A stretch of 64,000 nucleotides of DNA from Marinifilum caeruleilacunae (lineage in GTDB: Bacteria; Bacteroidota; Bacteroidia; Bacteroidales; Marinifilaceae), in contig NZ_RZNH01000021.1 of the NCBI RefSeq assembly GCF_013141825.1, positions 1 to 64,000 on the forward strand, read 5' to 3'. The notes beneath the pieces are model-generated. The model was not told where the DNA came from. It saw only the letters and a program-made list of their open reading frames with translations, and did not search any database. Each line of letters begins with the position of its first letter. Position 1 is the first letter of the stretch. Both the position numbers and the translations under genes were made by a program. This document shows, piece after piece, positions 39,599-55,721 of this stretch.

Positions 39599-42016
39599 AT
39601 GCAATTAAATCAAAATATAATAAGAAAATTTGTGTCCATTATTTTTCTGGTGATTCTATGTATCGGAAAATCAATGTCGCAAAGTAAAACTGTAACAATT
39701 AAAGGAACTGTTCTAGATCCTAATGATAATGCAATTCCATTTGCAACAGTATATGAGAATAATACAGAGAATGGAACAGTAACAGACGAGAATGGAGAGT
39801 TTAAAATAACAGTCTCGATAAAAAGTAATGTTGAATTGGTGTTTAGAAATTTAGGATTTCAAGAAAAAAGAATAATCATTCAACAAAGCTCCAATCCTGG
39901 ATTAATAGTGGTTCTTGAGCCAAGTTTGGAAAAAATAAACGAGGTAGACATTATTGCTAAAAGTACTTCGACAAAAATAGAAGAAAAAGGTTTTACTGCC
40001 ATTTCGCTTCCCGTAAAAGAACTACAAACACAATCAATTGAGATAAATCAGGTTTTAAGTCAGAGTGCAGGAGTTAGAGTTCGACAGCAAGGAGGATTAG
40101 GATCAAGAGTTAACTATAGTATTAATGGATTAGAAGGTAAAGCGGTTCGCTTCTTTCTCGATGGAATTCCAATGGATTACTTTGGTTCCTCCTTTTCAGC
40201 CGCAACCATTCCTATTTCACAAATTAGTAGAATAGATATTTATAAAGGTGTTGTTCCCGTCGAATTGGGAAGTGATGCCTTAGGGGGTGCTGTTAATCTA
40301 GTTTCTAAAAAAGATGTTAAAAACAATTTAGATTTCAGCTACTCTTTTGGATCATTTAATACCCATAAAGTTTCATTGTCTGGATTTTGGCGAAATAAAA
40401 ACAATGGATTAACAGGAAAAATTTCGGCCTTTTACAATTATTCCGATAACAATTATAAAGTATGGGGCAATGATATAAAGGTGGATGAGAAAGTTGTCAA
40501 TGAAGATGGTTTTGTAACCTATGTTCCAAAAAGAGGGATCACGGTTGAGCGTTTTCATGATGCCTTTGAGTCAAAAACAGTTAAGGCAGACTTTGGATTT
40601 ACAGGCATAGATCAAGCAGATCAGGTTTTTATCGGACTATTGTTGTCTGGAATGGATAAGGAAATCCAGCATGGAGCAACAATGTTTGTTCCATTTGGAG
40701 AAGCAACTTACGAGCAAAGTGTTATCATGCCATATCTTACCTATAAAAAAAATAATATTTTAACAGAAGGTCTTTCTTTAAACTTATTTACATCTTATTC
40801 TGAATTAATTCGTTCCAGGGTAGATACAACCCGTAACATTTACAATTGGCTAGGTGAAATTGAGGATGAGAAAAGAGTATTAGGAGGAGAACAAAAACGC
40901 ACTTTGAATAAATTAACCGAGAATGCTTTCTTAAATAGATTGAATATTGGGTATGATTTATCGGACAATCATAGTTTAGGTTTTAATACAGTTTTTACAC
41001 ATGTAAAAAGAACAGATGAAGATCCATTGGTTACCCAAAAAACCGATGGTTATTATGCACCACAATATTTTAAGAAAAGTGTAATGGGCCTTAGTTTGCA
41101 AAGCAAATTAATTGATCAGAGATTACAAACCAATCTATTCGCAAAATCTTATTACTATTGGGCCGATATAAAAGTATCTACCACCGAGGCAGGAGTTACG
41201 AGTTATGAAACCGTTTCAAGTAGTAAAAATAGTTTTGGGATTGGTATTGCTAGTTCTTTTGAATTGAATGAGAATTTTCTGATTAGTGCTTCTCTTGAAC
41301 ATGCTAATCGTCTTCCCGAAGCCAACGAGGTTTTAGGTGATGGTTTAAATATAATTTCGAATCCTCATCTAAAACCAGAGTCCAGTTTCAACGCTAACCT
41401 CGGATTTAATTGGAATATAAATTTAGATTCAGATAATAGAATTCAATTGGTTCCTAATCTATTTTACAGAAATGTAAGCCAAAAATTGAAGATGGTAACT
41501 GCTAGTGACCCTGGACTATTTCAGTTTGTAAACTTTGATAAAGTTAGAATAAAAGGAATTGATGGTCGAATTCAATTTTTCCATAAGCAAAGCATAAGAT
41601 TAACACAATCGGTATCCTACCTGAATCCGGTAATTAAAACGGACAAAGATGAATTGGGAAATGATAATGGATTGGCAAATACAAGAATGTCTAATACTCC
41701 ATTTTACCAAGCCAATTCTGAGGCCCGTTACAACTTTAAATCATGGCTAAAAAACAATGCCCAGGCATTTGTCTACTGGCGCTTTAAATATGTGGGATCT
41801 TTTTACAGATATTCTGAGAAATTCGGAAGTGAAAAAAAAGACCAAGTGCCTAAGCAAAATGTAAATAATTTCGGTATAGGCTATACTTTCCCAAATCAGA
41901 AATTAAGTATTAGTGCTGACGTTAACAATATATTCAACGTTCAGGCTTTTGATAATTATGCTGTCCAAAAACCTGGAAGAGCATTCTATATAAAAATTAA
42001 TTGTAAAATATTTTAA
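39599..42016 (+). CDS. TonB-dependent receptor (probable siderophore receptor, XusA-like)
   Basis: 805 aa. Signal peptide (about 1-28, ending KSMSQ). A carboxypeptidase regulatory-like domain (about 32-115, KGTVLDPNDNAIPFATVYEN) is followed by a plug (about 130-240, VRVRQQGGLGSRVNYSINGLEG, IDIYKGVVPVELGSDALGGAVNLVS). The long barrel ends in FYIKINCKIF. In the TonB-receptor family the plug gates import of ferric siderophores or similar ligands. The downstream lipoprotein, esterase and PepSY-reductase argue for iron-siderophore import. First gene of the operon; the next gene starts 28 bp after its stop. Confidence 0.88.
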   Translation: MQLNQNIIRKFVSIIFLVILCIGKSMSQSKTVTIKGTVLDPNDNAIPFATVYENNTENGTVTDENGEFKITVSIKSNVELVFRNLGFQEKRIIIQQSSNPGLIVVLEPSLEKINEVDIIAKSTSTKIEEKGFTAISLPVKELQTQSIEINQVLSQSAGVRVRQQGGLGSRVNYSINGLEGKAVRFFLDGIPMDYFGSSFSAATIPISQISRIDIYKGVVPVELGSDALGGAVNLVSKKDVKNNLDFSYSFGSFNTHKVSLSGFWRNKNNGLTGKISAFYNYSDNNYKVWGNDIKVDEKVVNEDGFVTYVPKRGITVERFHDAFESKTVKADFGFTGIDQADQVFIGLLLSGMDKEIQHGATMFVPFGEATYEQSVIMPYLTYKKNNILTEGLSLNLFTSYSELIRSRVDTTRNIYNWLGEIEDEKRVLGGEQKRTLNKLTENAFLNRLNIGYDLSDNHSLGFNTVFTHVKRTDEDPLVTQKTDGYYAPQYFKKSVMGLSLQSKLIDQRLQTNLFAKSYYYWADIKVSTTEAGVTSYETVSSSKNSFGIGIASSFELNENFLISASLEHANRLPEANEVLGDGLNIISNPHLKPESSFNANLGFNWNINLDSDNRIQLVPNLFYRNVSQKLKMVTASDPGLFQFVNFDKVRIKGIDGRIQFFHKQSIRLTQSVSYLNPVIKTDKDELGNDNGLANTRMSNTPFYQANSEARYNFKSWLKNNAQAFVYWRFKYVGSFYRYSEKFGSEKKDQVPKQNVNNFGIGYTFPNQKLSISADVNNIFNVQAFDNYAVQKPGRAFYIKINCKIF

Positions 42017-42044
42017 TATGTATAAACTCAAAAATAACTTTAAA

Positions 42045-43340
42045 ATGAAAAAGTATCTATCATTAGCATTTGTCTTTCTATTTGGCTTTGCTCTATTTTC
42101 TTGTTCTGATGATGACGATAATGATTCAAATCCTAATCCAGAGCCGGAACCAGAAGTTAGAGACAATTTCAGTGTCTTGGGAGTAATTGAAGGAGCTTAT
42201 TATTTGGCTCAAACTGAATCATTAAGTGAAGGAACTCTTAGCTTCGTGAACAATGGAACTCAATTGGAAGCCGATCAGGCAGCACGTATTATTGCATCTG
42301 GAGATTATTTGTATTCTCTAAACTATGGCACGGGTTTGTTAACACAGCTTAAAGCTAATACAAATGGAGGCTATGATATTGTGAAGGAAATTAATGCAGG
42401 ATTATCAGTTGGTACGAATCGTCCTAGATTTAAGCTGGCTAGCGAAGATATTATTATGGTATACAATGTAACTGTTGAGCCAATTAAAGATCAAGATGAC
42501 AACATTATCGACAATACCTGTACTCTACGTTTGGCTTCAGTTTCTATTCCTGATTTGACAATTGCCAATTTAAATGAATTTGTAATTCCTCAGTCGGATA
42601 ATGCAAAACAAGGCGGAACTATTGGTTATCACCCAATGCGTGTGGATGGTCCGGTAATTTCAGAAGATAAAATTTATTTTGGATTAATGCACATGGACAT
42701 GTCTGATCCTACAACTCCACCACCATTCCGTAAGCCAAAACAAACAGGATTGGAAACTTTGGTGTTTGACTATCCCTCACTAACCAATGGAACTGTAGTA
42801 GAATCAAGTGTAGCTTCAGGTCATACGACAGGTTACCGTGCACCATCAATGCACGTTGATGAGGAAGGCGATGTTTACCAGGTGAACTGGTTCATGAGTG
42901 GAAACTCTTTCGATCTATCTGCTGGTGATAAAACCGTTATTTCGCGATTAAGAGATGGTGTATATGATCAGGCATATTCATTTAATGTATCAGAGGCATT
43001 AGGTTTAAGTACAAATATTGCATCTGTTGGTTGGTTCTATGTTGGCAATGGAATTGGTTATATGCCAATTCAATTGGAAGATGAAGGGACTTACTATAAT
43101 TCAAATTCATGGTCAGTTGCCAAAATTGATGTGTACAATAAAACTGCGGTTAAACTTGACGTACCATTATCAGGATTATTCTCTTACGAAAATGGAGTAG
43201 CTGCAAACGAAATGTTCTACATGGCTATCAGTCCAATTGGTGGAGAATCATATGTATATGAATTCGACCCAGAATCAAATGACTTTACACAAGGACTTAA
43301 ATTGGATGGTGGAAACGTAGTTGTTGACGGCGTTTACTAG
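42045..43340 (+). CDS. Surface lipoprotein, DUF4374/XusB-like
   Basis: 431 aa from ATG 42045; an earlier in-frame ATG (42018) only adds a tail before the signal peptide. Lipobox in LFGFALFS-C, followed by an acidic SDDDDNDSNPNPEPEPE linker, the usual Bacteroidota surface-export-type tail. The rest is beta-rich with repeating blades (GTLSFVNNGTQLEADQAARIIASGDYLYSLNYG, YRAPSMHVDEEGDVYQV). I assign it to DUF4374, the family of XusB, the lipoprotein that in Bacteroides holds ferric enterobactin next to its receptor (from memory). A beta-propeller fold is likely. A terminator-like hairpin follows. Confidence 0.8.
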   Translation: MKKYLSLAFVFLFGFALFSCSDDDDNDSNPNPEPEPEVRDNFSVLGVIEGAYYLAQTESLSEGTLSFVNNGTQLEADQAARIIASGDYLYSLNYGTGLLTQLKANTNGGYDIVKEINAGLSVGTNRPRFKLASEDIIMVYNVTVEPIKDQDDNIIDNTCTLRLASVSIPDLTIANLNEFVIPQSDNAKQGGTIGYHPMRVDGPVISEDKIYFGLMHMDMSDPTTPPPFRKPKQTGLETLVFDYPSLTNGTVVESSVASGHTTGYRAPSMHVDEEGDVYQVNWFMSGNSFDLSAGDKTVISRLRDGVYDQAYSFNVSEALGLSTNIASVGWFYVGNGIGYMPIQLEDEGTYYNSNSWSVAKIDVYNKTAVKLDVPLSGLFSYENGVAANEMFYMAISPIGGESYVYEFDPESNDFTQGLKLDGGNVVVDGVY

Positions 43341-43370
43341 ATCTAGCTAATTTCGATTAATACCATAAAT

Positions 43371-43399
43371 CTCCGACAAATATACTGTCGGGGGTTTTT
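43371..43399 (+). terminator. Internal terminator/attenuator in the siderophore operon
   Basis: 8-bp stem CTCCGACA/TGTCGGGG followed by GTTTTT, between the DUF4374 gene and the next lipoprotein. Probably reduces read-through to the distal genes. Confidence 0.7.
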
Positions 43400-43420
43400 A
43401 CATTTTTAATACTCACTATC

Positions 43421-44041
43421 ATGAAAAATTTAATACTTATACTTACCATTGCTTTTTCATTTGCAGCATGCAGTAAAATGGGACCTAAAATTGGCCCTGA
43501 TTACAACAAGGTTAAACCAGAACTTGCTATGGATAAAAAGCAAGAGAAACAATTTGATCAAATAACAGGAAAATATACAGAACTTAGAATGGAGGCATTC
43601 GCAAAAGCTCGATCGGGTGGTAAAATGAACCGTGAAGCTATGATGGCTGAAATGAAAAAGTTATTTGCAAAACAAGGAGAGGAACTTAAGCCAGTATTGT
43701 CGGATCAACAATTTAAATATTTTACCGAATGGTTGCAAAAGCAGATTCCTGGTCCTGTGGGTTGGTCGAAAGAGTTAAGAGCAAAAATTAAAACAGAGCT
43801 GGCGTTTGACGATGAGAAGTCAAAAATGCTGGAGGCAGTAAACCAGGCTTTTGTTGAAGCTTATGTTGGAGCTCATGACAATTACCATGGAAATAATGAA
43901 GCCGCCAAAGAATATTGGACTGAGTTCAATAACAACAGAAATGATGCAATGAAACAACTGCTAAACAATGAGGAGTATAGTAAGTTTCTTGAGCTAACTA
44001 AAGAGGTTCGATTCAAAGGAGAACATGGTAAAGAAGAGTAA
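43421..44041 (+). CDS. Small helical lipoprotein (unknown function, internal duplication)
   Basis: 206 aa. Lipobox in IAFSFAA-C. The rest is charged and helical. Two similar halves can be seen: residues about 37-105 (MDKKQEKQFDQITGKYTELR ... LSDQQFKYFTEWLQK) and about 125-195 (FDDEKSKMLEAVNQAFVEAY ... LNNEEYSKFLELTKEV). The pattern recalls Spy/CpxP-type helical periplasmic proteins, but without clear LTxxQ motifs. Placed between the receptor lipoprotein and the esterase, with the next ATG 2 bp after the stop, so it probably belongs to the uptake system. Confidence 0.75.
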   Translation: MKNLILILTIAFSFAACSKMGPKIGPDYNKVKPELAMDKKQEKQFDQITGKYTELRMEAFAKARSGGKMNREAMMAEMKKLFAKQGEELKPVLSDQQFKYFTEWLQKQIPGPVGWSKELRAKIKTELAFDDEKSKMLEAVNQAFVEAYVGAHDNYHGNNEAAKEYWTEFNNNRNDAMKQLLNNEEYSKFLELTKEVRFKGEHGKEE

Positions 44042-44043
44042 GC

Positions 44044-44892
44044 ATGAAAGGTAGAATACTTTTTTTATTATTAATCTTAACATCTACAGCTGTCCTTGCA
44101 CAAAAGGACAGTTGTGCTATTACGATTAAAAAGCACATCATAAATTCAAAATTTCTTGATCAAGATCGTGAGGTATGGGTTGCCCTTCCAAAGACTTATG
44201 AATCTGGCAAAAAATATCCTGTATTGTATGTCCTTGATGCAGAATGGCATTTTGATTTGATTCGTGTATTGTCCAATAATCTGGCGAAAAGTAAAAAAAT
44301 ACCTGAGCATATTGTAGTTGGTATTCCGCATGTTTCGGTTTCAAAAGAACGTGTGAAAGATTTTACATTCAGTCTTTCAAATGTAAATCCGTATGGAAAA
44401 AAACAATTACCAAAATTTTTTAATGAAGCAAATTGTGGAGGAGGCATTCCATTTTTCTCCTTCTTGAATCAGGAAGTAGTTCAATGTATTGATTCTTGTT
44501 ATACAACCAATAACAATAATGTACTACTAGCTCATTCTCTTGCCGGATATTTTGCCTCATATACTTTATCTAGAAATCATAAATTTACTGCAATACAAAT
44601 TTACGATCCAAGCATTTGGTATAACAATGGTGAAGCAATAGAACAAATTAAAGACGTTGAATTTCTAAATAATGGTGTAAAGGTATTTATGGCAAACCAG
44701 ATTTTTCCAAATTTTCACTACCAAAACATGAATAAGTTTGCGATAGTTTTAAGGGAATGTAAGCATGTAGATTTTAAGCAGGTTGAGTTCAGTGATGAAA
44801 ACCATGGCTCGGTTTATCTCGATGGATTTTTAAAGGGCATTGATCATTTGTATAAGGATTATAAACTAGAACATTTTAAATTAAAGAAATAG
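44044..44892 (+). CDS. Esterase-family alpha/beta hydrolase (Fes/IroE-like, periplasmic)
   Basis: 282 aa with a signal peptide (MKGRILFLLLILTSTAVLAQ). Belongs to the esterase-D/IroE family by REVWVALPKTYESGKKYPVLYVLDAEWHF. Nucleophile Ser in LLAHSLAGYFA; the usual GHSxGG is AHSLAG. A late His lies in SDENHGSVYL. IroE-type enzymes cut the tri-ester backbone of enterobactin or salmochelin in the periplasm, which would release iron. Acting on a siderophore is inference from the operon. 2 bp after the preceding gene. Confidence 0.82.
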   Translation: MKGRILFLLLILTSTAVLAQKDSCAITIKKHIINSKFLDQDREVWVALPKTYESGKKYPVLYVLDAEWHFDLIRVLSNNLAKSKKIPEHIVVGIPHVSVSKERVKDFTFSLSNVNPYGKKQLPKFFNEANCGGGIPFFSFLNQEVVQCIDSCYTTNNNNVLLAHSLAGYFASYTLSRNHKFTAIQIYDPSIWYNNGEAIEQIKDVEFLNNGVKVFMANQIFPNFHYQNMNKFAIVLRECKHVDFKQVEFSDENHGSVYLDGFLKGIDHLYKDYKLEHFKLKK

Positions 44893-44912
44893 TTCATCGC
44901 TAATTGAAATGA

Positions 44913-47681
44913 ATGGTACAATTCAAAAAAGTAATATTTAAACTTCATTTATGGCTCGGACTTGCTGCTGGTCTGGTGATTTTTTTAGTATGCCTAACCG
45001 GTGCGATATATACATTTCGTGCCCAAATAGAGAATGGTCTTAATTATAAAAATATTGCTGTGAACGAGGAGGGAACACCTCTTTCTTTAGACTCTATTCG
45101 TGCTGAATTTAAAAAGAATAATCTTACAATTAATCAAATTGTTGTTCACCCTAAATTAAATCGCAGCATTGAAGTTTTCTATACCTCAATAGATGGTTCA
45201 GAATCTGGAATGTATTACGTAAATCCATTTACCGGAGCTATAATTGGTAACAGAAACTCAGCATTAAGTCCTTTTTTTGAGTTTGTATTATCCTTACACA
45301 AAAGCTTGTTACTAAATAATATTGGGAAACGAATTGTAGGAGCAAGTGTTTTGATTTTCGTATTCATGCTCTTATCAGGTTTGGCATTATGGTTTCCTAA
45401 AAAACTGAGAAGTTTAAAAAGAAAACTGCGATTTAAAAGGAGTGAAGGCAAAGCACGTTTAACTCTTGATTTACACCAAGTAAACGGTTTCTACTCTTTT
45501 CTTGTGTTACTATTAATTGCCATAATGGGATTGTATATTACCTACCCATGGATGAAAAGTACATTAATAGTTGTTTTTGGTGGCAATCCGGTATTATCAC
45601 AGGCTTCTGATAAGCAAAGTGAAAAGATTAAAATGGAATTGGCCGCATCATTTGCTGAATCCTTAAAAAAAATCATAGATCAAAATAATGAGAAGCAGGT
45701 TGATGGTAATTATTCCCTTGATACAATCCTTTTAAGAGCGAATGAGGCTTTACCATACAAATCAATAACAAGAATACAATTACCTACTGCCGAGAATTCA
45801 TGGGTAAGTGTAAGAAAGAGTAATAGGAAAAACTTATTGAGGGCAATATTGATAGATGAATTGGATTTTAACCAAAAAGCTGAGTTGAAAAACAAAAATC
45901 TATTTAAGGATAAAAGCCTGGATCAAAAGTTTGTGGCATTGTCGCTACCCTTGCATACGGGAGAAATATTGGGATGGCCAAGTTTGGTTCTATATTTTCT
46001 TGTAAGTCTTATTGGTGCATCTTTACCTGTTACAGGCACTTTAATGTGGTACAGACGTATGAAAACTCAAACTCGATTCAATCGAGCGGGCATTATATCA
46101 GAAAGTTTAGAAAAGGATTATTCTCACATAAGTACACAAAAATGGTTAATTGCTTATGCAAGTAAGTCAGGTAATTCGAAATTAATTGCACTTGCACTAC
46201 AACAACAATTTAAAAAAACGGGCTTAAATGTAAAATGTAGTAATATTTCGCAGGTTGGATTAAATGAAATTAGGGACCTAAGCCATTTATTTGTTACGAT
46301 AAGTACAGATGGACAGGGAGTTGAGCCACCATCAGCAAGAAAATTGTTCAAAGAACTGCGGGATTCAAAAAACGGTACTTTAGATCAGTTACAATATTCA
46401 ATTTGTGCTTTGGGCGATTCTGCTTACGACGAGTTTTGTAAGGCTGGTAAGGATTTGGAATCTTTATTGCTTAAGAATAAATCAAAAACACTTGTAGAAA
46501 GAGTTGATTGTGATACCGATTTTTCAAAAGAATCAAGGAATTGGATAATTGAGTGCATTAATAAATCGCTTTGCCTGAAGGATATTCCTTTGGATGAATA
46601 TGGAACAGGTGATATTAATTTAAACTCCAAACAAATTCAGTTACTAAAAGTTAAGGAAATTTTTCAATTAACTAAAGGGAAAACTCAAAAGCCATGTTTT
46701 CATATTACACTAGAGTCCGATCATGATATTAGCTATATAAAACCTGGTGATTCAATAGAAATTCACCCTAACAATCCTAAATGGTTGGTTAATGATATTC
46801 TAGATCGTTTACATATCCGTAAATCGAAATTACTGTTTAAAAACTTAAGTGAAGATAAAGAGTTAACCAGGCTGTCCAAAAATACTTTACAGAGGTATTA
46901 CAATATATCCCATGATGAAAAATTAAATCAATTATTGAATAGTTCTTCTAAATTGATTAAATATCTGACAAAGGCTAATTTTTATGACTTATTGATGGAT
47001 TTTCCATATTTTTTAAGTTCGAAACAATTGTTGGCGATCTTACCTCCAAAGAAAGGAAGATTGTATTCTGTTGCATCGAGCACTGCTGTTTATCCCCGGC
47101 AAATTCATCTTACTGTGAAATCAATTCGCTATCAGTTTAAATCAAGAAAACACGAAGGAGTTGGATCTATAGAATTAACCGAAAATCTGCAAATTGGTGA
47201 AATTCTGAAATATAAACATTATCCTAATTTTGATTTTAGATTGCCAGAATCTCCAGATGTACCCCTTCTGATGATTGGTATTGGAACTGGAATAGCACCC
47301 TTTAGAGCCTTTATTCAAGAGTGCATGTGGAATAATTATAATAATAAAATTTGGCTAATTTGGGGAGATAAAAATAGAGAGTCTGATTACTTGTATAAGG
47401 ATGAACTAGAAGAATTAAAGAAGAACAATAGTCAAATAAGAATAGATTTGGCATTTTCACGTGATGGTGAATCAAAAACATACGTACAAGATATAATTCG
47501 ACAAAATCAGAAGGATTTTATTAGTTACTTAATCAATGGTGCTCATGTTTATGTTTGCGGATCAATTAAAATGGCTAATGACTTACGGGAAGTTGTAAAA
47601 AATAGTCTGTATATGAGTTCCAATTTAAAAATTAGCTATGAGAAACTGAATAAAACCAAATATCATGAAGATACTTATTAA
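44913..47681 (+). CDS. PepSY-TM flavodoxin-FAD/NAD reductase fusion (probable ferric-siderophore reductase)
   Basis: 922 aa. A PepSY-type membrane domain (about 1-385; TM segments near 13-33, 142-161, 195-212, 356-380) carries the conserved histidines H12, H129, H188 and H348. A flavodoxin domain follows (about 411-550, YASKSGNSKL, TDGQGVEPPSARKLF, ALGDSAYDEF). An FAD-binding domain contains RLYS at 716-719. The NAD(P)-binding domain (about 785-905) has GIGTG at 789-793 and a Cys-Gly in VYVCGS. The order resembles a CysJ-type flavoprotein fused to PepSY. It can pass electrons from NAD(P)H across the membrane to a periplasmic ferric complex. XusC is the PepSY part of the Xus system. Confidence 0.88.
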   Translation: MVQFKKVIFKLHLWLGLAAGLVIFLVCLTGAIYTFRAQIENGLNYKNIAVNEEGTPLSLDSIRAEFKKNNLTINQIVVHPKLNRSIEVFYTSIDGSESGMYYVNPFTGAIIGNRNSALSPFFEFVLSLHKSLLLNNIGKRIVGASVLIFVFMLLSGLALWFPKKLRSLKRKLRFKRSEGKARLTLDLHQVNGFYSFLVLLLIAIMGLYITYPWMKSTLIVVFGGNPVLSQASDKQSEKIKMELAASFAESLKKIIDQNNEKQVDGNYSLDTILLRANEALPYKSITRIQLPTAENSWVSVRKSNRKNLLRAILIDELDFNQKAELKNKNLFKDKSLDQKFVALSLPLHTGEILGWPSLVLYFLVSLIGASLPVTGTLMWYRRMKTQTRFNRAGIISESLEKDYSHISTQKWLIAYASKSGNSKLIALALQQQFKKTGLNVKCSNISQVGLNEIRDLSHLFVTISTDGQGVEPPSARKLFKELRDSKNGTLDQLQYSICALGDSAYDEFCKAGKDLESLLLKNKSKTLVERVDCDTDFSKESRNWIIECINKSLCLKDIPLDEYGTGDINLNSKQIQLLKVKEIFQLTKGKTQKPCFHITLESDHDISYIKPGDSIEIHPNNPKWLVNDILDRLHIRKSKLLFKNLSEDKELTRLSKNTLQRYYNISHDEKLNQLLNSSSKLIKYLTKANFYDLLMDFPYFLSSKQLLAILPPKKGRLYSVASSTAVYPRQIHLTVKSIRYQFKSRKHEGVGSIELTENLQIGEILKYKHYPNFDFRLPESPDVPLLMIGIGTGIAPFRAFIQECMWNNYNNKIWLIWGDKNRESDYLYKDELEELKKNNSQIRIDLAFSRDGESKTYVQDIIRQNQKDFISYLINGAHVYVCGSIKMANDLREVVKNSLYMSSNLKISYEKLNKTKYHEDTY

Positions 47682-48154: not shown

Positions 48155-48406
48155 TTATTCTTTTGTATCTTCTTTCAACTTCTGCTCCATTTCAGCAATA
48201 AGATCTTCAATATGTTCCTTAGTACTCACCAACTCTTCAATGTTCATATCATCAAAGCCTTTGTCGTTTGATTCTGGTATATTTATACCTTGGCTTCTTA
48301 AAAATTCATTAATTTGAGCCTTGTTTTTATTGTATAAGTAATAAGCTCCCAATGAAACACCAACCCCAATTAAAATTCCCGTTGTAAGATTTCCTTTGTT
48401 TTCCAT
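48155..48406 (-). CDS. Small single-TM protein of the HMA-like module
   Basis: 83 aa. One Gly-rich membrane segment (about 7-25, LTTGILIGVGVSLGAYYLY), a short linker and a C-terminal amphipathic, acidic helix (about 53-80, MNIEELVSTKEHIEDLIAEM). The layout resembles YtxH-like or PacL-like small membrane proteins that accompany some P-type ATPases; I infer a scaffold or partner role. Last gene of the module, 22 bp after the preceding stop. Confidence 0.75.
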   Translation of the reverse strand: MENKGNLTTGILIGVGVSLGAYYLYNKNKAQINEFLRSQGINIPESNDKGFDDMNIEELVSTKEHIEDLIAEMEQKLKEDTKE

Positions 48407-48428
48407 AGTTAATTGTTTTATTGTTTAG

Positions 48429-49256
48429 TTATTGATTAAAATGCAATACCATTCCGTTTATATTTTTTCCTACGCCTTCAATAAATTCATCATGCGAATT
48501 CATTAGGTCCTTAGAGCCATCGAACATAGTATTTCTAAACCCTCCTCTTGTTAAAGCAAAGCTTTTCGATAGCTGATGAAACAAATCAGCAACAGTTCCC
48601 CTGTTTGGTAATTTCGAAACATTCAGATGATAGTATATTTTTTTGTTCTCTTCCTTTTTTCTTGCTACTTCCAGCACTATTCCCTCATTGTCATTAGTTG
48701 AAAAATGTCTGCCAAATGTACTTACCCAAGTAAGGGCAGTAGGAATAAGTAATCGCTGATTACTTACCACAGAATTCACCAGCAAGCCTATTGAAAGTAC
48801 TTCAGGATCAACACTACCTTTTTTACGATAATCAAATTCAGCATGTTCAATTACAGCAGCTGCCGTAGTTACAGCACTGATCCAATTTGTTGCCTTTTTT
48901 AATATGAGATTTTTAGAAAAAAGATTTAATGTAACCGCCGTAACAATACATAAGCCAGAAAATATTCCTTTGGAAGTAATGAATTCACCCTTTCCTTTCT
49001 GAGTAATTTTCACAGGAATCATATTATTTTCCACCGAATAAGCCACAGCAACTCGAATAAGAATTTCGTTAGCTTTTACTACTTCATTATTAAAGAAGAC
49101 CAGAACATTCTGACTTAGCGGATTATAATCGAATGATTCTATTCCACTATGTTCCAATACCTGAGACTTTAGTTTCTTGAAATGCTTGATGGGTTTCGAA
49201 AAATTTATTCGCAACCTATTATTCAATCGATGTTTTATTTTTAATACCAACTCCAT
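48429..49256 (-). CDS. HMA-like domain + membrane hairpins, resembles the ATPase N-terminal half
   Basis: 275 aa from the ATG at 49256; the frame extends upstream to 49340 inside the ATPase gene. That ATG overlaps the ATPase stop (TAATG), so the two are translationally coupled. Residues about 1-75 form an HMA-like domain (KIKHRLNNRLRINF; LVFFNNEV), without CxxC and with the PGR core degenerate. Membrane segments follow (GIFSGLCIVTAVTLNLFSKN, WISAVTTAAAVIEHAEFDYRKKG, SIGLLVNSVV, LIPTALTWVSTFGRHFS). They match the spacing and pattern of TM A to TM2 of the neighbouring ATPase. No phosphorylation (DKTGT) or ATP-binding motif. Function unknown; a regulatory or dimer partner of the ATPase is my inference. 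Confidence 0.75.
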   Translation of the reverse strand: MELVLKIKHRLNNRLRINFSKPIKHFKKLKSQVLEHSGIESFDYNPLSQNVLVFFNNEVVKANEILIRVAVAYSVENNMIPVKITQKGKGEFITSKGIFSGLCIVTAVTLNLFSKNLILKKATNWISAVTTAAAVIEHAEFDYRKKGSVDPEVLSIGLLVNSVVSNQRLLIPTALTWVSTFGRHFSTNDNEGIVLEVARKKEENKKIYYHLNVSKLPNRGTVADLFHQLSKSFALTRGGFRNTMFDGSKDLMNSHDEFIEGVGKNINGMVLHFNQ

Positions 49257-51454
49257 TACCTTTCCATTTTGAAAAAAAACAATCTTAACGAATTTGAAAC
49301 CACAGCCACTGTGGTCATATTGTGCAGAAATGCACCCCAAAATACTGGTAAAAGTCCAGTAGCTCCCAGAACAAGACCCAAACTATTAATTCCTATCGAA
49401 GCAATAAAATTCTGTTGCACAGTTTGCATTGTTCTACGGGAAAGTTGAATTGCCGAAGGAATTGTTAATGGGTTATCACTTTGTATGGCAATATCGGCAG
49501 CTTCCATTGCAATATCTGTTCTCTTGCTTCCCAATGCAATACCAACATCAGCATAAGCCAACGCAGGTGCGTCATTTATACCATCTCCAATCATTACTAC
49601 TTTAGAGCCTTTAGACTGAAGATTTAAAGCAAAGCGGGCTTTATCTTCGGGCATTAATTCCGACTTGTACCGATCGAAAGTCATTTTACTGGCAACCACC
49701 TCCGCCTGCTGTTCCACATCTCCAGTCAAAAGGATAATATCATCAACTTCAAGGTTTCGTAAACGATTAATGGTTTTTTTCATATTCTCCCTAAGAGGAT
49801 CATTCAGTCCTATTAATCCGCATAGTTTATTTGATTTAGAGACATAGACTATGTTTTCCCCACGAAGCATCAATCTCGAAATAATGTCTTTAGCTGGTTC
49901 CAACAGAATTCCATTCTCCTTCATAAATTTAGCATTACCAACCCTCACAATACTTCGCCCAATTTTAGTTTTCACTCCCCTGCCTATTACAACCTCAATT
50001 TCATTGTGTTTCGGGATTTTTATTCCATTTAACTTCACTCGTTGCATAATTGCATGAGCCACAGGATGTGTTGATGTTTCCTCAGCTGCTGCTACTATCC
50101 CAAGCAAATCAGGAATATTTAACTTTTCATCAACAGGAATAATGGATTTTACTTCAGGATTCCCTTCTGTCAAGGTTCCGGTTTTATCAAATATGACTGT
50201 ATCAACTTCTGCAAGGGTCTCAAGGTAGTTGCTGCCTTTAATTAATACTTTATTTCTGGCACCGGTAGAAATTGCTGCTGTAAGCGCTGTTGCTGTTGAT
50301 AAACGTATACTACAAGAGTAATCGATCACCAACATATTTAGCGCACGCATTGGACTTTTAGTAACAGCATATACGATACCTCCCAGAATGAAATTTAATG
50401 GTATGAGGCTGCCAGAAAATTTATCGGCAACATTTTGCACCTGTGCCTTATTGTGAGAGGCCTCCTCAACCATATGAATTATTTTCGAAGCAGCAGTATC
50501 TTCCTGGGTTTGTTCGGCCATAATGGAAACAGTTCCGGTTTTTATTGTACTGCCTGCAAAAACATAGTCACCTTTTGACTTCTCTTTTGGCATATACTCC
50601 CCAGTAATCGAGGAATCATCAACTGTTGCACTTCCATTAATTACCTTCCCATCAACACTGATGATCTCACCCGAATGCACAACAATGGTATCTCCTTTAT
50701 GTATTTCTTCTTGTGGTGTTTTTATCAATGAGCCATCCTGTTCTAATTTCCATACGAATTTTTCTCCGGTAGCAAGCATTGCCCTTATAGCTTTTCTTGT
50801 TCGATTCATGCTATATGCAGTAAGCAATTCAGCTATATCAGAAAGCAAAATAATAGTTAATGAGGAGATCCCATTACCTGACAGAAGACTAGCAAGAATA
50901 GATACAGCGCTTAACGTATCTGCATTGGGTCTCTTATTATACCGTAGAGATTCATAGCCACTCTTAAAAACCGGTCGGGCCAAACTCAAACTAGTCAGTG
51001 CAGTAAAATTTGTAAGTCTTCCAAACATGGAACGAGCTGGAGTGGTATTTCGTTTAAAAAGCGCCCAAGCCAGTGCTGCCGATCCTACCAATACATTTCG
51101 GAACAATTCTTCCACAGGCTCTTCCTGCAATCGCCGTTCATTTACGGTAAGTCTCGATTTTTCTTTTCGTTCTCCCTTAAATGCAGGAATGGAAAATTGT
51201 GAAATAATATCTTCTACTTTACGCAAAACAATTTTCGAATCAAATTCATCAGAATAATATATCAACACATTACTTGTTATGGGAGAGATTTTAACCGATG
51301 AAATAAAATGAACGCTTAACAGTAACTCTTCTATGTCCTTCTTATGATCCGAAAGAAATTTCAATGCACGGCAATATATTCGCATACGACCATGTAACTG
51401 GTGTATAGGATTACATTGTAGTAAAGGTCTTTTATAGTTCTGCCTCAAATTCAT
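49256..51454 (-). CDS. P1B-type heavy-metal ATPase with S-C-S metal-site motif
   Basis: 732 aa. The N-terminal HMA-like domain (about 17-75, IHQLHGRMRIYC) has HxxxGRxR but no CxxC. All ATPase motifs are present: TGE at 284-286, DKTGT with phospho-acceptor D423, an HP motif in STHPVAHAI, and GDGINDAPALAYADVGIALG. The TM6 metal-site motif reads S380-C381-S382 (DYSCSIRLST) where P1B pumps usually have CPC, CPH or SPC. From memory, YSC-x-IRLS-type motifs occur in the CtpC group of Mn/Zn exporters; not checked. Transport of a transition metal is likely, metal unknown. Its start overlaps the preceding gene by 23 nt. Confidence 0.88.
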   Translation of the reverse strand: MNLRQNYKRPLLQCNPIHQLHGRMRIYCRALKFLSDHKKDIEELLLSVHFISSVKISPITSNVLIYYSDEFDSKIVLRKVEDIISQFSIPAFKGERKEKSRLTVNERRLQEEPVEELFRNVLVGSAALAWALFKRNTTPARSMFGRLTNFTALTSLSLARPVFKSGYESLRYNKRPNADTLSAVSILASLLSGNGISSLTIILLSDIAELLTAYSMNRTRKAIRAMLATGEKFVWKLEQDGSLIKTPQEEIHKGDTIVVHSGEIISVDGKVINGSATVDDSSITGEYMPKEKSKGDYVFAGSTIKTGTVSIMAEQTQEDTAASKIIHMVEEASHNKAQVQNVADKFSGSLIPLNFILGGIVYAVTKSPMRALNMLVIDYSCSIRLSTATALTAAISTGARNKVLIKGSNYLETLAEVDTVIFDKTGTLTEGNPEVKSIIPVDEKLNIPDLLGIVAAAEETSTHPVAHAIMQRVKLNGIKIPKHNEIEVVIGRGVKTKIGRSIVRVGNAKFMKENGILLEPAKDIISRLMLRGENIVYVSKSNKLCGLIGLNDPLRENMKKTINRLRNLEVDDIILLTGDVEQQAEVVASKMTFDRYKSELMPEDKARFALNLQSKGSKVVMIGDGINDAPALAYADVGIALGSKRTDIAMEAADIAIQSDNPLTIPSAIQLSRRTMQTVQQNFIASIGINSLGLVLGATGLLPVFWGAFLHNMTTVAVVSNSLRLFFFKMER

Positions 51455-51815
51455 AGCCTTCTTCCTTTAGCTCTTTGTACATTTCATCTACCTTATTAAT
51501 CGTCATCTTTTCCTCCTTCGTTACGATTTCATATAGCTTTTCTCTTACTCTGTTAAGAAATGTCAGAATATGTTTATCAGAGGTTACATCCTTGTCATAT
51601 AAAATCAATGCTTTTGACGAAATAAAATTCACATTTAGGGATTGAATGCCTTTTAATCGGTATCGTTGAAAGAAGCTTTCTATTTCCTGAGGTTCAATTT
51701 TGTTTTTTACGTATTTAAGAATTGGTATTTTAACCCTTAACCTTCCGGGAATACTGTGCACCAATTGAATCTTGGATAAATTAAATGCAGTTCTATATAA
51801 GAGATTTGTAGACAT
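51432..51815 (-). CDS. Single HMA-like (HMA_2-type) domain protein
   Basis: 127 aa. Core motif HSIPGRLRVKIP (about residue 21), then a beta-alpha-beta pattern (KGIQSLNVNFISSKALILYDKD) and an acidic C-terminal tail (KVDEMYKELKEEGYEFEAEL). No CxxC, so classic copper- or zinc-chaperone binding is unlikely. The gene overlaps the ATPase gene by 23 nt, which ties the two together. Confidence 0.8.
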   Translation of the reverse strand: MSTNLLYRTAFNLSKIQLVHSIPGRLRVKIPILKYVKNKIEPQEIESFFQRYRLKGIQSLNVNFISSKALILYDKDVTSDKHILTFLNRVREKLYEIVTKEEKMTINKVDEMYKELKEEGYEFEAEL

Positions 51816-51867
51816 TATTTACGATTTAAGTTATTTCCGGGAGTTAAATTTACAAGTCAAGCTTTTA

Positions 51868-52416
51868 TCACGGCTTTTGCAAGTTCATATACGCCCAATA
51901 CAAAAAATTCAATCCAGGTGGCATTAGGTTGCGCTTGACTATCATCGAATAAGCTCCAAAACCAATAAATGAAGTAGTTACCAAACTCCTTAAATCCATT
52001 ACTCCATTGGTATACTCATAAACACCAGTATTTAGTGATTTAAACAAATCCTTTAACTCCTTTGTTAGCATTGAATTTGGAGATTTTTCAATTGATTTTT
52101 CAAGCCCTAATAATTTAACCAGGACACCCGTTAAGGTTTCAACATCAATATGATCCTTATCAAACTCAATTAATACTTTTCCCGTAATAGGATTGGGCGT
52201 GATACCATTGATTTGTTCCGCCTTTTCTAATTGAGTTTTTAATTGTTTACATTTGTCAGGCTCATTTTTTAGTGTAGGAACTAAAAATCGAACACGGCCA
52301 GGTATTAGATGCATTATTTCAACTATGCCTTTAAATCCTTTAAATCCTTTCATACCTTTGTTCATTAAATTTCCTGCCAATAGCCTTGCTATCAGTAAAC
52401 CTGTTATGATGCGCAT
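51868..52416 (-). CDS. HMA-like domain protein with hydrophobic ends
   Basis: 182 aa. Hydrophobic N-terminus (MRIITGLLIARLLAGNL), then HMA-like motif HLIPGRVRFLVP (about residue 36) with NPITGKVLIEFDKD. The C-terminal half has hydrophobic stretches (about 145-180, LVTTSFIGFGAYSMIV, LNFLYWAYMNL) that could be membrane segments. No CxxC. 52 bp before the 127-aa gene on the same strand. Confidence 0.78.
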   Translation of the reverse strand: MRIITGLLIARLLAGNLMNKGMKGFKGFKGIVEIMHLIPGRVRFLVPTLKNEPDKCKQLKTQLEKAEQINGITPNPITGKVLIEFDKDHIDVETLTGVLVKLLGLEKSIEKSPNSMLTKELKDLFKSLNTGVYEYTNGVMDLRSLVTTSFIGFGAYSMIVKRNLMPPGLNFLYWAYMNLQKP

Positions 52417-52793
52417 AATGTATTAGATGATTCGTTTTCCCTCTTACTAGTAAGATAATGAAAATTACCATTTTTAGAAAATCTACGAACTGGAATTCAA
52501 AGCTTTAATTTGAATCAATATTGTTTTTTATGAACACTTATATTTTAGTTTTTATTCAAACAGGCTGTTTAAGAAATACCTTAAAAACTTGATTTTTTAT
52601 ATAAAAATCATGAATTAAGAATTTGGCAAATAAGATTTCTGAGGTGAGAAATAACAGATGTTCATTAACAGAAAAAAACGCTGTATTCGAGGATTACAAC
52701 GAAAAACTATGCATCGTTAAGTCGAACGATATGAAGAGCAAAAGTTAAGATAAGAGAATTTTTGTCCTCACATATATCTTATTTTATGAATCA
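52417..52793. other. Gene-free stretch within the HMA-like module
   Basis: About 380 bp without a supported gene. A short inverted repeat (ATCGTT/AACGAT, 52713-52730) is the only structure. Confidence 0.4.
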
Positions 52794-52881
52794 AGAGATA
52801 GACAAATTTCAAACGTTTTAAACATCATTTGATAAGTGTATAACCGAATTATTTATAGAGATTATAAATTTGTCTATCTCT
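52794..52881. repeat. 16-bp perfect inverted repeat with a 56-bp spacer
   Basis: AGAGATAGACAAATTT (52794-52809) and its perfect complement (52866-52881). It lies 20 bp after the stop of the 168-aa gene. No T-run follows, so not a standard terminator. A small MITE-like element or a long stem-loop are possible. Confidence 0.8.
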
Positions 52882-52900
52882 AAATTCTATGTATAAGTAT

Positions 52901-53407
52901 TTATGAAATTTGATTAGATCGACGTCCATTCCCTATCAATCCATTCACTGATTTTTGAAGAGGTTTTCTATTTAAACCCATATGTCCTAAAACGATGCCG
53001 GTAAAAGCTGTCCCAAAAGCTATGTGCCATTTCTTACTATCAAATGCCAAGGCCCCTAGTGTTCCTGCGAAACTAATAATCATACCAGGATTTACAATAC
53101 TTCTCACTTTGCTTTTGTTACTCTTGGAACGTTTTGTAGTGATATGATCCTGCTCTGGTGGGAAACAACTTTTCCATTGTTCTTTTAGCCTCATTTGCAT
53201 GTTTTTCATTGATTCATCATCCTTATACAAAATCAGAATTGATCCAATACAATCATTCAACCTCACTTCTTTAACATGCTCAATGGTTCGAATCCTATCC
53301 ATGAATAAGTCAGTCTTTTTACGATCCAAAAAAACTTTATTCACACAGCGAATACGCCCAGGTATATGACTAACCACATTCATAGTTCTATCTCCTCTTC
53401 CAATCAT
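52901..53407 (-). CDS. HMA-like domain protein with two TM segments
   Basis: 168 aa. HMA-like motif SHIPGRIRCV (about residue 13) and VRLNDCIGSILILYKDDE. A basic linker (TTKRSKSNKSKVRS) precedes two membrane segments (about 107-145, VNPGMIISFAGTLGALAF and WHIAFGTAFTGIVLGHMGL). No CxxC, so not a typical metallochaperone. The Met9 start (53383) is preceded by a GGAGATAG stretch and is equally plausible. First gene of the module, behind its promoter. Confidence 0.78.
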   Translation of the reverse strand: MIGRGDRTMNVVSHIPGRIRCVNKVFLDRKKTDLFMDRIRTIEHVKEVRLNDCIGSILILYKDDESMKNMQMRLKEQWKSCFPPEQDHITTKRSKSNKSKVRSIVNPGMIISFAGTLGALAFDSKKWHIAFGTAFTGIVLGHMGLNRKPLQKSVNGLIGNGRRSNQIS

Positions 53408-53502: not shown

Positions 53503-54485
53503 ACTAGGCTTTTATTTAGACAATGATTTCATTATACCAAAGATTTAGAGTCAAATATGTATAGTTACATTATAAGTAGTTCCATAATAAGGGTACATTT
53601 TACATACCCAAACTATATTTAATGAACCAACATATGGTAGGTTCACAAAAGGCATACCCTATTCGCACCATATAGATATTTTTCAGGTTCATTTTTGAGG
53701 TGGGTTCAAAGCTGGGATAATTTTGATCGAATTAAGCTCAATTGTAGATCAATTTTGGGTTCAGGTTGAAGTGTACCCTATTTTGAACCTCTAATACATT
53801 GTGAATCTAATGTTATTAAGAAATGAGCCTAAAAATTATTTTCTCACTCAATTATCATTTTCTTTTAAAAAAAATACACATACAATACGTTGTGTATCCG
53901 TACCACTTTTTCTGCGTGATTTTTCAACAATCAAGACCATTTAGGTTCATTAGAATTGAGAATAACAAGTAGAAACTAAATGGCTTTTGATCACATCTAA
54001 TAGTCATATTACTTGATAATTACACTACCATTCACTTACTAGACTTATGTAGACATCTGAGAACGAAGCCAGCCATTGAGTTTGGATAATATCTGTGCTA
54101 AATTGGTAGAAGATAAGTAACTTAAAAAGTATGTGTATGCGTAACAATATTACCTGCGTATACACATACAATTTAATAGAAAATTGAAGTATTATTTGTG
54201 CTTAAAAGTATGTGTATCTGTACACATTTTTTCTGCGTTCATCATTCCAAATGCCCAGTAAAACCTACCATTCATAAGGTTTTATCAATAAGAGTAAATT
54301 GAATTATAAAGCATTTAGTCAATAATCTTAAAGGCAAATTTAATATTTTTTATTTACGGCCAAATAAATTAATTGTTTTTTGTTAAAACACTAAGTTGTA
54401 TTCCAGCTACTGATTTTGCCATCATCTTTCCATTCTCCATTCGGGAATGTTACACTGAAATTTACAGCATAACAACAGCCAACCA
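53503..54485. other. Right-end regulatory or recombination region of the island
   Basis: About 980 bp between the HMA-like module and the integrase, no gene. Seven GGTTCA/TGAACC hexamers lie between about 53624 and 53949. A longer motif with TGTGTAT-nnGTA is found near 53891, 54131 and 54210, one copy (54130-54171) being a near-perfect 13-bp inverted repeat (GTATGTGTATGCG/CGTATACACATAC). Confidence 0.6.
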
Positions 54486-55721
54486 CTAACCCCAATATTT
54501 CTGCATCGAATCAATAACAGATTTTTGTGAAGTCTTTTTATATTTTATTAAGGTTTTGGGATCCCGTATACCTGTAATTTTCATAATTATATGATCAGGC
54601 ATTCCCTTTTCACTTGACAAGGTGATAAAGGTTCGTCGAGCTGTATGACTCGACACCATTTTATATTTAGGATTGTAAACCACCTCTTTCTTAGTTCCCC
54701 TATATATGATTTCCTTTATATCTTCATTAAACTCGGCCAATTCGCAAACTTTCTGAATATGCTCGTTAAACTTCTGACTAGATATCCGGGGTAACTCCCA
54801 GTCATACTTATCTAAAAGCTCTTTTAATTTTAGATGCAATGGTATAAAACTTTCAGTTTCTGTTTTCTCAGCTTTCTTAATTATCATTTCTCCTTGAACA
54901 TCCGATTTCTCAAAAACCGAATAATCCGAAAATCTTTGTCCAGAATAAACACCTATTAAAAACAAATCTCTTACACGCTCCAATGATTTACGTGGCAATG
55001 AGATATTTTCAAGAATTGCAACCTCTTCACTAGTTAAAAAGACATCATCCGGTTGATACTTGTTTACGGGATTCTTTATTGTCTTTAGGTTGATATTGTG
55101 ATATTTCGTTTCAGACCAAATCAAGACAGTAATCAAGAAATTAATTGTACGGTGTAATGTGTTATCATTATGTGGTTTAAACGGTTTAACCCTGATAACA
55201 CGTAAAAACCCGCAAAATTCATCTATCCAATCCTGGGTAATTGAATTAAATTCTATTTTTCTTCTCTTTTTGGTTTCAAAAGCTATTAACTTGTTTTTAA
55301 GGTTCTTGTATTTCTGATTCCAGGAATGAGATTGTCCTTTAGACTTATTTTTAGTATCAATAAAATCCTGAATAGCATCTATGAGATACTGGCTCTCCCC
55401 TTTAATGGCTTTATGCTTGAATTTTTCATCAAACAATTGCTTTAGTAATTCTCTGGTTAAAGGCTTATTAAGCTTTTCATACTCTTTAATTTTTTCATCC
55501 AAAAAGTCGGAGTACATAGCTAATACGGAACCAAGATGTTTCAATTCTACACCCCCAGCCCCTCTTTTTACCACTGGCATTCGACTTTTACTATTCCAAT
55601 TATCAGGGTGAATCTTTTGATTAGTAGAATATTTAAAGTTTTTATTCTGATTTTTTAAAAAATAAATCAAATAAATTGGCGTGATTTTATCACTTTTGGG
55701 TTCTTTAAGAAAAAAATACAT
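54486..55721 (-). CDS. Tyrosine recombinase (integrase) of the island
   Basis: 411 aa. An arm-binding N-terminal region (about 1-100), a SAM-like core-binding domain (about 105-215) and a catalytic domain. Catalytic residues: R263 (GQRFSDY), H359-x-x-R362 (HTARR), Y394 (LIKYKK). The usual second His/Trp position (GHSS-type) reads ITGIRD. Typical of Bacteroidota integrases of tRNA-targeting islands. The gene starts 160 bp from the right att site and reads inward. A TATATTTG box (55741-55748) lies just upstream of its start. Confidence 0.93.
   Translation of the reverse strand: MYFFLKEPKSDKITPIYLIYFLKNQNKNFKYSTNQKIHPDNWNSKSRMPVVKRGAGGVELKHLGSVLAMYSDFLDEKIKEYEKLNKPLTRELLKQLFDEKFKHKAIKGESQYLIDAIQDFIDTKNKSKGQSHSWNQKYKNLKNKLIAFETKKRRKIEFNSITQDWIDEFCGFLRVIRVKPFKPHNDNTLHRTINFLITVLIWSETKYHNINLKTIKNPVNKYQPDDVFLTSEEVAILENISLPRKSLERVRDLFLIGVYSGQRFSDYSVFEKSDVQGEMIIKKAEKTETESFIPLHLKLKELLDKYDWELPRISSQKFNEHIQKVCELAEFNEDIKEIIYRGTKKEVVYNPKYKMVSSHTARRTFITLSSEKGMPDHIIMKITGIRDPKTLIKYKKTSQKSVIDSMQKYWG

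Follow-up and report, generated by a model that had tools for sequence, protein, structure and literature searches.

A P1B6-type ATPase gene cluster of Marinifilum caeruleilacunae as a probable ferrosome-type variant with additional HMA_2 proteins

Why should a heavy-metal P-type ATPase be encoded side by side with several proteins that carry the HMA-like domain of its own N-terminus, and what would such a set of proteins do? The question is raised by a locus of Marinifilum caeruleilacunae that lies in a stretch of 64,000 nucleotides (contig NZ_RZNH01000021.1), referred to here as the window. The ORF map of the window contains six ORFs, all on the minus strand, where a preliminary description of this DNA had placed them:

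48155..48406, minus strand: small protein, FezA-like, 83 aa; glycine-rich hydrophobic stretch, then an acidic tail with KEHIEDLIAE
48429..49256, minus strand: 48429 protein, 275 aa; degenerate HMA_2, four predicted helices and a beta tail
49256..51454, minus strand: P1B6-type ATPase, FezB-like, 732 aa; N-terminal HMA_2, DYSCS in TM4, LHN in TM6
50309..50323, minus strand: TM4 site D-Y-S-C-S of the ATPase, residues 378-382
51432..51815, minus strand: HMA_2 protein (HMA127), 127 aa; 23-nt overlap with the ATPase start; PF19991 match 3.5e-9
51868..52416, minus strand: full-length HMA_2 protein (HMA182), 182 aa; C-terminal extension; PF19991 match 1.5e-47
52901..53407, minus strand: FezC-like protein, 168 aa; HMA_2 and a hydrophobic C-terminal part with H128-x13-H142; PF19991 match 2.2e-10

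The five downstream genes are densely packed: two of the junctions are the coupled starts that had been described (TAATG at 49256 and an overlap of 23 nt, 51454/51432), and the remaining gaps measure 52 and 22 nt. The start assigned previously to the 48429 gene, TTG 49340, is probably to be replaced by ATG 49256, which gives 275 aa.

Relatives of the ATPase were collected by scanning named genomes with a TM3-TM4 alignment, which gave 372 relatives; the best 80 were kept (33 type 1, 47 type 2), and L012 and L015 were added from a plasmid search. The assignment to the two types was made by hand from the gene map and afterwards checked by a tree. Type 1 comprises 35 loci (the window, L012, L016-L047 and L049), and type 2 comprises 48 loci (47 among the best 80 of the 372 relatives, plus L015 of Vibrio). 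The type-1 order, HMA182 > HMA127 > ATPase > HMA + helical protein > small protein, is complete and intact in 31 of the 35 loci and spans several phyla, so that the cluster is conserved in other genomes. HMA182 is found in 35/35 loci and HMA127 in 31/35, some of the HMA127 matches counted being short (64 and 69 aa); the incomplete loci L019, L020, L021 and L023 all lack HMA127, and in L020 and L021 the contig ends before the small gene. The six genes had been proposed to form one functional unit. A conserved block is indeed present, but the conserved unit consists of five genes, not six, because the 52901 gene lies 484 bp away from the other five and has a homologue beside the block in only 2/35 loci.

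Type-2 loci, found in Deltaproteobacteria, Desulfovibrio, Brocadia, Nitrospira, Synergistaceae and Methanovirga, usually have the order small > ATPase, and some of them also encode a downstream HMA_2 protein. They resemble the window in having an ATPase of a sister clade, a homologous small protein (32/48 by the tail pattern given below) and, in part, a FezC-like protein with H-x13-H, whereas their TM4 mostly reads DYSCA, their small gene precedes the ATPase gene, and no set of HMA182, HMA127 and half-ATPase-like protein was recognised in them. In a tree of 88 ATPases, the type-1 (SH-aLRT 99) and type-2 sequences (SH-aLRT 98) each form one group, and a joint group of the two (SH-aLRT 96) excludes three CPC-type ATPases; the tree was made by a quick method with SH-aLRT support only, and the Priestia, Vibrio and outgroup branches are long. 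At a single locus of Nitrospira sp. (L058), two oppositely oriented genes encode FezB-like ATPases with DYSCA. L013, on plasmid pBM400 of Priestia megaterium, is a plasmid-borne set annotated as HMA2, HMA2, P-type ATPase, HMA2 and hypothetical protein, with DFICG in TM4.

Among 395 genomes sampled from the phylum, PF19991 was found at E<=1e-6 in one, the window's own, and none of five same-genus genomes had a match at 1e-3. Because PF19991 is this rare in the phylum and the genus, yet the block recurs in other phyla, the cluster is more than a chance assembly. The best 80 of the 372 relatives include thirteen Bacteroidota MAGs whose isolate names contain "Sed", so that the cluster does occur in the phylum, though sporadically. 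The closest ATPase by identity among these 80 (66%) belongs to a Bacteroidales MAG (L026), and the best ATPase match in the plasmid collection is from Fusobacterium vincentii (50.7% over 98%). The viral contigs searched contained no ATPase relative, and the 51868 protein had no match in the plasmid collection.

The ATPase itself matches PF00122 (5.3e-42), HMA_2 (2.4e-8) and TIGR01525, i.e., heavy-metal P-type ATPases (5.1e-164), and the initial view that a metal pump is central to the cluster is right or at least likely. Its metal site had been read as S-C-S, and TM4 is indeed VIDYSCSIRLS; at residue 382 the window has Ser, where all 34 other type-1 ATPases have Gly. P1B ATPases of the ZntA/CopA type have CPC in TM4 and CxxC in the HMA domain. 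The window ATPase shares with them the ATPase core and a putative ferredoxin-like N-domain, but has S-C-S in place of CPC and an HMA_2 domain without CxxC. FezB belongs to the P1B-6 class. Across the loci drawn from the best 80 of the 372 relatives, the plasmid search and the window, HN in TM6 is found in 35/35 type-1 and 45/48 type-2 ATPases. The available part of PMC9374683 names HN in TM6 as a P1B6 feature, and judged by this motif the window ATPase is of the P1B6 class.

Ferrosomes are recently described iron-storing organelles that have been demonstrated in few organisms, and the gene order in ferrosome clusters is fezABC. We consider it probable, with moderate confidence, that the cluster of the window is a ferrosome-type (fez-like) iron module, a variant with extra HMA_2 copies and a half-ATPase-like protein; both iron as the substrate and the formation of an organelle are what we infer. 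The HN mark of the P1B6 class supports this reading, as does the joint clade that the type-1 and type-2 ATPases form apart from the CPC types.

Six fez genes (RPA2333-2338) are given for Rhodopseudomonas palustris in an excerpt of PMC12016538, and fezAB of Clostridioides difficile correspond to CD630_05910-05920 (fezA 05910, fezB 05920) in an excerpt of PMC11651100. Compared by description, the fez clusters of Desulfovibrio magneticus (FezABC), R. palustris and C. difficile are like the window in having a P1B6-class ATPase and an iron context; a small membrane protein and a DUF4405-related cytochrome-like protein would be putative further features in common. However, several differences are noted. 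First, the gene order of the window is another one; in C. difficile, going by the locus numbers in that excerpt, fezA precedes fezB, provided that both are encoded on the strand along which the loci are numbered, and this is the opposite of the window. Second, the window has two extra HMA_2 proteins and the half-ATPase-like protein. Third, its FezC-like gene is set apart upstream, and its TM4 has S-C-S. The order small > ATPase > FezC-like, which fits the names FezA, FezB and FezC, occurs in type-2 loci of Deltaproteobacteria MAGs (labelled Myxococcota or Candidatus Adiutrix) and of one Desulfovibrionaceae MAG (L094). The ferrosome reading is weakened in that its link to FezA, FezB and FezC runs through family, gene order and description rather than direct alignment.

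The small protein is likely to have one TM segment, as had been proposed: in a simple hydropathy scan, the hydrophobic stretch exceeds the threshold in some of the relatives, while that of the window protein stays below. Its tail ends EMEQKLKEDTKE. The tail pattern [KR]E.[ILVM][ED]D[ILMF][IVLMYA]AE is present in 32/33 type-1 small proteins, the one miss being truncated by a contig end, and in 32/48 type-2 loci; in ORFs of 55-160 aa overall, family members included, it is found in 67/3171. Profile-profile alignment (hhalign) of the type-1 with the type-2 small proteins gave an E-value of 4.1e-8 with the tail shared. On this comparison, the small protein of the window is homologous to those encoded next to ATPases of the sister clade, and this homology between the two clades further supports the ferrosome reading.

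A small protein next to an HN-motif ATPase also calls to mind metal efflux platforms of the plasma membrane such as PacL/CtpC, in which the small protein would cluster the ATPase in foci and surplus metal, zinc or other, would be exported without any organelle. According to the part of PMC9374683 at hand, PacL proteins are small scaffolds encoded with P1B6-like ATPases, and P1B6 ATPases are typically encoded with small DUF6110 proteins, which are related to DUF1490 (PacL). Of seven type-2 small proteins examined, five have sub-cut-off matches to DUF6110 or DUF1490 (0.0021-0.071) and two have none, whereas the small protein of the window has no such match at E<=10, nor do 20 members of its family (the family alignment, A5, has 20 rows) at E<=0.1. 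A Rhodococcus plasmid locus (L014) has a DUF1490 protein (2.6e-40) beside an HN ATPase that shows, by eye, GRIR near its N-terminus; however, this ATPase is of the CPC type and falls outside the joint type-1 and type-2 clade, and TM4 of the window has S-C-S, not CPC. The HMA2-HMA2-ATPase-HMA2-small set on the Priestia plasmid also speaks for such a platform. The PacL1-CtpC platform of Mycobacterium tuberculosis resembles the window in its small partner protein and HN-motif ATPase but has a DUF1490 protein with a metal-binding end and CPC in TM4, whereas the small protein of the window has a single His in 83 aa and no His-rich end; HMA_2 companions and a cytochrome go unmentioned for PacL1-CtpC in that part of PMC9374683. 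Membership in the PacL/CtpC family proper was considered and rejected, as the DUF1490 small protein, the C-terminal metal-binding motif and CPC in TM4 are all absent. With a FezC-like protein and a siderophore operon that fit iron better, we consider an efflux platform unlikely.

The 52901 protein had been described as another HMA copy, but it is rather FezC-type-like. Its profile matches place it in a family that is encoded downstream of some type-2 ATPases and whose members combine HMA_2 with a hydrophobic C-terminal part ending in H-x13-H. All 16 proteins retained in the final profile run have this motif, and 15 of the 16 are encoded downstream of a type-2 ATPase; the seeds of the run already had the His pair, 33/48 type-2 loci yielded no member, and a coverage filter excluded L049, L075, L088 and L094, in which H-x13-H is visible by eye. 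H128 and H142 are invariant in all 15 rows of the family alignment (A3), which were selected from 20 candidates. Because H-x13-H at any place occurs in 166/870 other ORFs of 130-300 aa, it is the fixed aligned position of the motif that constitutes the evidence. DUF4405 matches residues 108-146 of the 52901 protein below the cut-off (0.074) and 2/15 family members at E<=0.1 (best 0.0028). A simple hydropathy scan gives one TM segment, and two helices in the hydrophobic part would be a guess. An excerpt of PMC11334425 describes FezC as a heme-B-binding protein of ferrosomes that is related to DUF4405, and presents it in a homodimer model. From its sequence, the 52901 protein looks like such a FezC-type cytochrome, putatively heme-binding, with its H-x13-H at the spacing expected of b-type cytochromes.

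This membership of the FezC-like family by profile, with both His residues, counts in favour of the ferrosome reading, which is, however, weakened by the sub-cut-off DUF4405 match and by the 33/35 type-1 loci in which no FezC-like gene was found beside the block. Only the window and L049 have one there, and some of the contigs end close upstream. When 15 other type-1 genomes were searched whole, partial matches only were obtained, none of the 15 extending past model position 126 of 201. Directly downstream of the 52901 gene, at 52788-52887, lies a 22-nt inverted repeat (91%) whose arms are 56 nt apart; a terminator scan listed no site at this place.

Next to the cluster, and convergent with it (tail-to-tail), lies an operon whose gene content is that of siderophore uptake:

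39599-47681, plus strand: Xus-like xenosiderophore uptake genes encoding a TonB plug receptor, a DUF4374 protein, a 206-aa protein (no Pfam match), an esterase and a PepSY_TM/flavodoxin/FAD/NAD reductase fusion

Xenosiderophore uptake in Bacteroidota involves a TonB transporter, a DUF4374 lipoprotein and a PepSY protein, with an esterase in the P. distasonis operon, according to an excerpt of PMC13142918. The gene content of this neighbouring operon fits an iron role and supports the ferrosome reading, as context rather than proof. In the flanks of the type-1 loci, where 109 of 145 ORFs were classified and 36 were left out for size, there is no common family or iron theme; the top count was 4, riboflavin genes from one set. 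ZIP "zinc" transporters and TonB receptors are equally frequent among these 109 ORFs (3 and 3), which weakens an iron-only context and is in keeping with an efflux platform of the PacL/CtpC kind.

An excerpt of PMC12574912 describes fezAB as repressed by Fur. The Clostridium acetireducens locus (L033) has an exact Fur-type palindrome, TGATAATGATTATCA, some 60 nt ahead of its first gene; counted alone among the Fur matches, this palindrome is suggestive and adds support to the ferrosome reading. No Fur-like site was found before the window's own genes. By position, the Fur matches in 34 type-1 loci gave 1/2 at <=1 mismatch (p 0.038), 4/16 at <=2 (p 2e-4) and 10/120 at <=3 (p 1e-4), and before type-2 small genes there was no match at <=2 mismatches and 0/18 matches at <=3. 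However, enrichment was not significant when the regions before type-1 first genes were compared with other upstream regions (3/27 versus 4/166, p 0.058; 6/27 versus 17/166, p 0.078). Fur regulation of the type-1 loci was rejected on this loss of the positional signal, and the ferrosome reading is weakened by the missing sites, both in the window and before type-2 small genes, and by the non-significant enrichment.

On its other side, the cluster adjoins a recombinase gene:

54486-55721, minus strand: phage-integrase-family recombinase, beside the cluster

Direct repeats of 13-35 nt and inverted repeats of 20-23 nt lie between this gene and the 52901 gene (53874-54238); they are perhaps candidate integrase sites, and the cluster may have arrived with a mobile element. 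A comparison with an empty site in the genus was tried and given up, as the neighbours 44913 and 56419 have only ~31-35% identity in other members and no empty site can be defined.

The same pump and the same metal would also serve an Fe(II) detoxification exporter, with iron leaving the cell and the HMA_2 proteins being merely regulatory. A P-type pump in an iron context would suit this function, and an internal compartment is not proven by the sequence itself; however, simple export would have no obvious need of FezA-like and FezC-like partners, and we regard an exporter as improbable.

What, then, are the HMA_2 domains for? PF19991 exceeds its 30-bit gathering cut-off in the four proteins that had been said to share an HMA-like domain (52901, 51868, 51432 and the ATPase N-terminus, with the E-values given above), and the 51868 protein aligns over profile positions 3-152 of 154. 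The 48429 protein matches under the cut-off (8.1e-4, 19.8 bits), consistent with the degenerate copy described earlier, and 23/28 members of its family match at E<=0.1 (best 1.1e-7). As had been stated, the domains are without CxxC: none is found in the first 110 residues of 35 HMA182, 31 HMA127, 35 ATPase and 35 48429-type sequences. The conserved feature of HMA_2 is G-R-x-R, present in 35/35 ATPases and with both Arg in 35/35 sequences of the 275-aa family; the leading His of the motif is found in 24/35, 22/31, 29/35 and 29/35 rows of the four type-1 families and in 1/15 FezC-like rows. The description of the domain as cysteine-free does not hold in general. Three Cys occur in the 52901 protein, and the N-domain of the ATPase contains C14 and C28; of the 35 type-1 ATPases, 18 have both, 12 have one and 5 have neither. 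C14 and C28 are semi-conserved and flank G-R-x-R of the pump's own HMA_2 domain; that they stand opposite each other on a single hairpin is a thought taken from a homologous model. As for the ferredoxin-like fold that had been assumed throughout, the prediction covers the 48429 protein, whose modelled fold is likely an HMA-like ferredoxin.

A classic HMA ion relay, in which the extra HMA_2 proteins would be metallochaperones handing metal to the ATPase, is very improbable, since CxxC is lacking, it is G-R-x-R rather than metal ligands that is conserved, and at least the 52901 and 48429 companions have hydrophobic or multi-helix parts, whatever the modelled fold of the 48429 protein and the cysteine pair of some ATPase N-domains may say for it. 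The HMA_2 domains may serve protein assembly, as had been suggested.

The 48429 protein goes beyond a degenerate HMA copy. Its helical part alone, compared with the first membrane helices of P1B ATPases alongside three controls, gave weak support for homology, and the protein may be derived, as a truncated copy, from the ATPase's own N-terminal half. H138 and R183-H184 are invariant in the helical part (28 rows of the half-ATPase-like family), and the His pair H138/H184 is a possible candidate for heme or metal ligands. A pump alongside a copy of its own front half would be an unusual arrangement for a P-type ATPase. A bolder version of the ferrosome reading, which we put forward as doubtful, is that a second, differently organised ferrosome-like lineage exists in Bacteroidota, Fusobacteriota and Clostridia, in which the catalytically empty copy of the pump's front half, with its His pair H138 and H184, would be an iron- or heme-binding membrane subunit that replaces the absent FezC.

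Under the ferrosome reading in its general form, the tail of the small protein and the HMA_2 domains would hold the pump in a membrane assembly, and the half-ATPase-like 48429 protein would be a subunit of the platform that carries the pump in the membrane, without a catalytic role of its own. The ATPase would drive Fe(II) from the cytosol into a membrane-bound compartment, and the FezC-like protein, as a homodimer with heme B, would move electrons across the compartment membrane, so that iron could be oxidised for storage and reduced for release. Such a gene set would be useful under a fluctuating iron supply, a role that fits because a siderophore-uptake operon adjoins the cluster.

In the open-licence literature, searched by titles and the starts of abstracts as a weak test, we found no report tying ferrosomes to gene clusters of Bacteroidota or Fusobacteriota, although the founding paper may list such clusters. 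With caution, what is new here is a variant of the ferrosome-like gene cluster, the kind itself being already known. If the type-1 clusters make ferrosomes, the trait would be extended to Bacteroidota, Fusobacteriota and several Clostridia, and a second gene architecture would be available for asking which parts build the ferrosome compartment.
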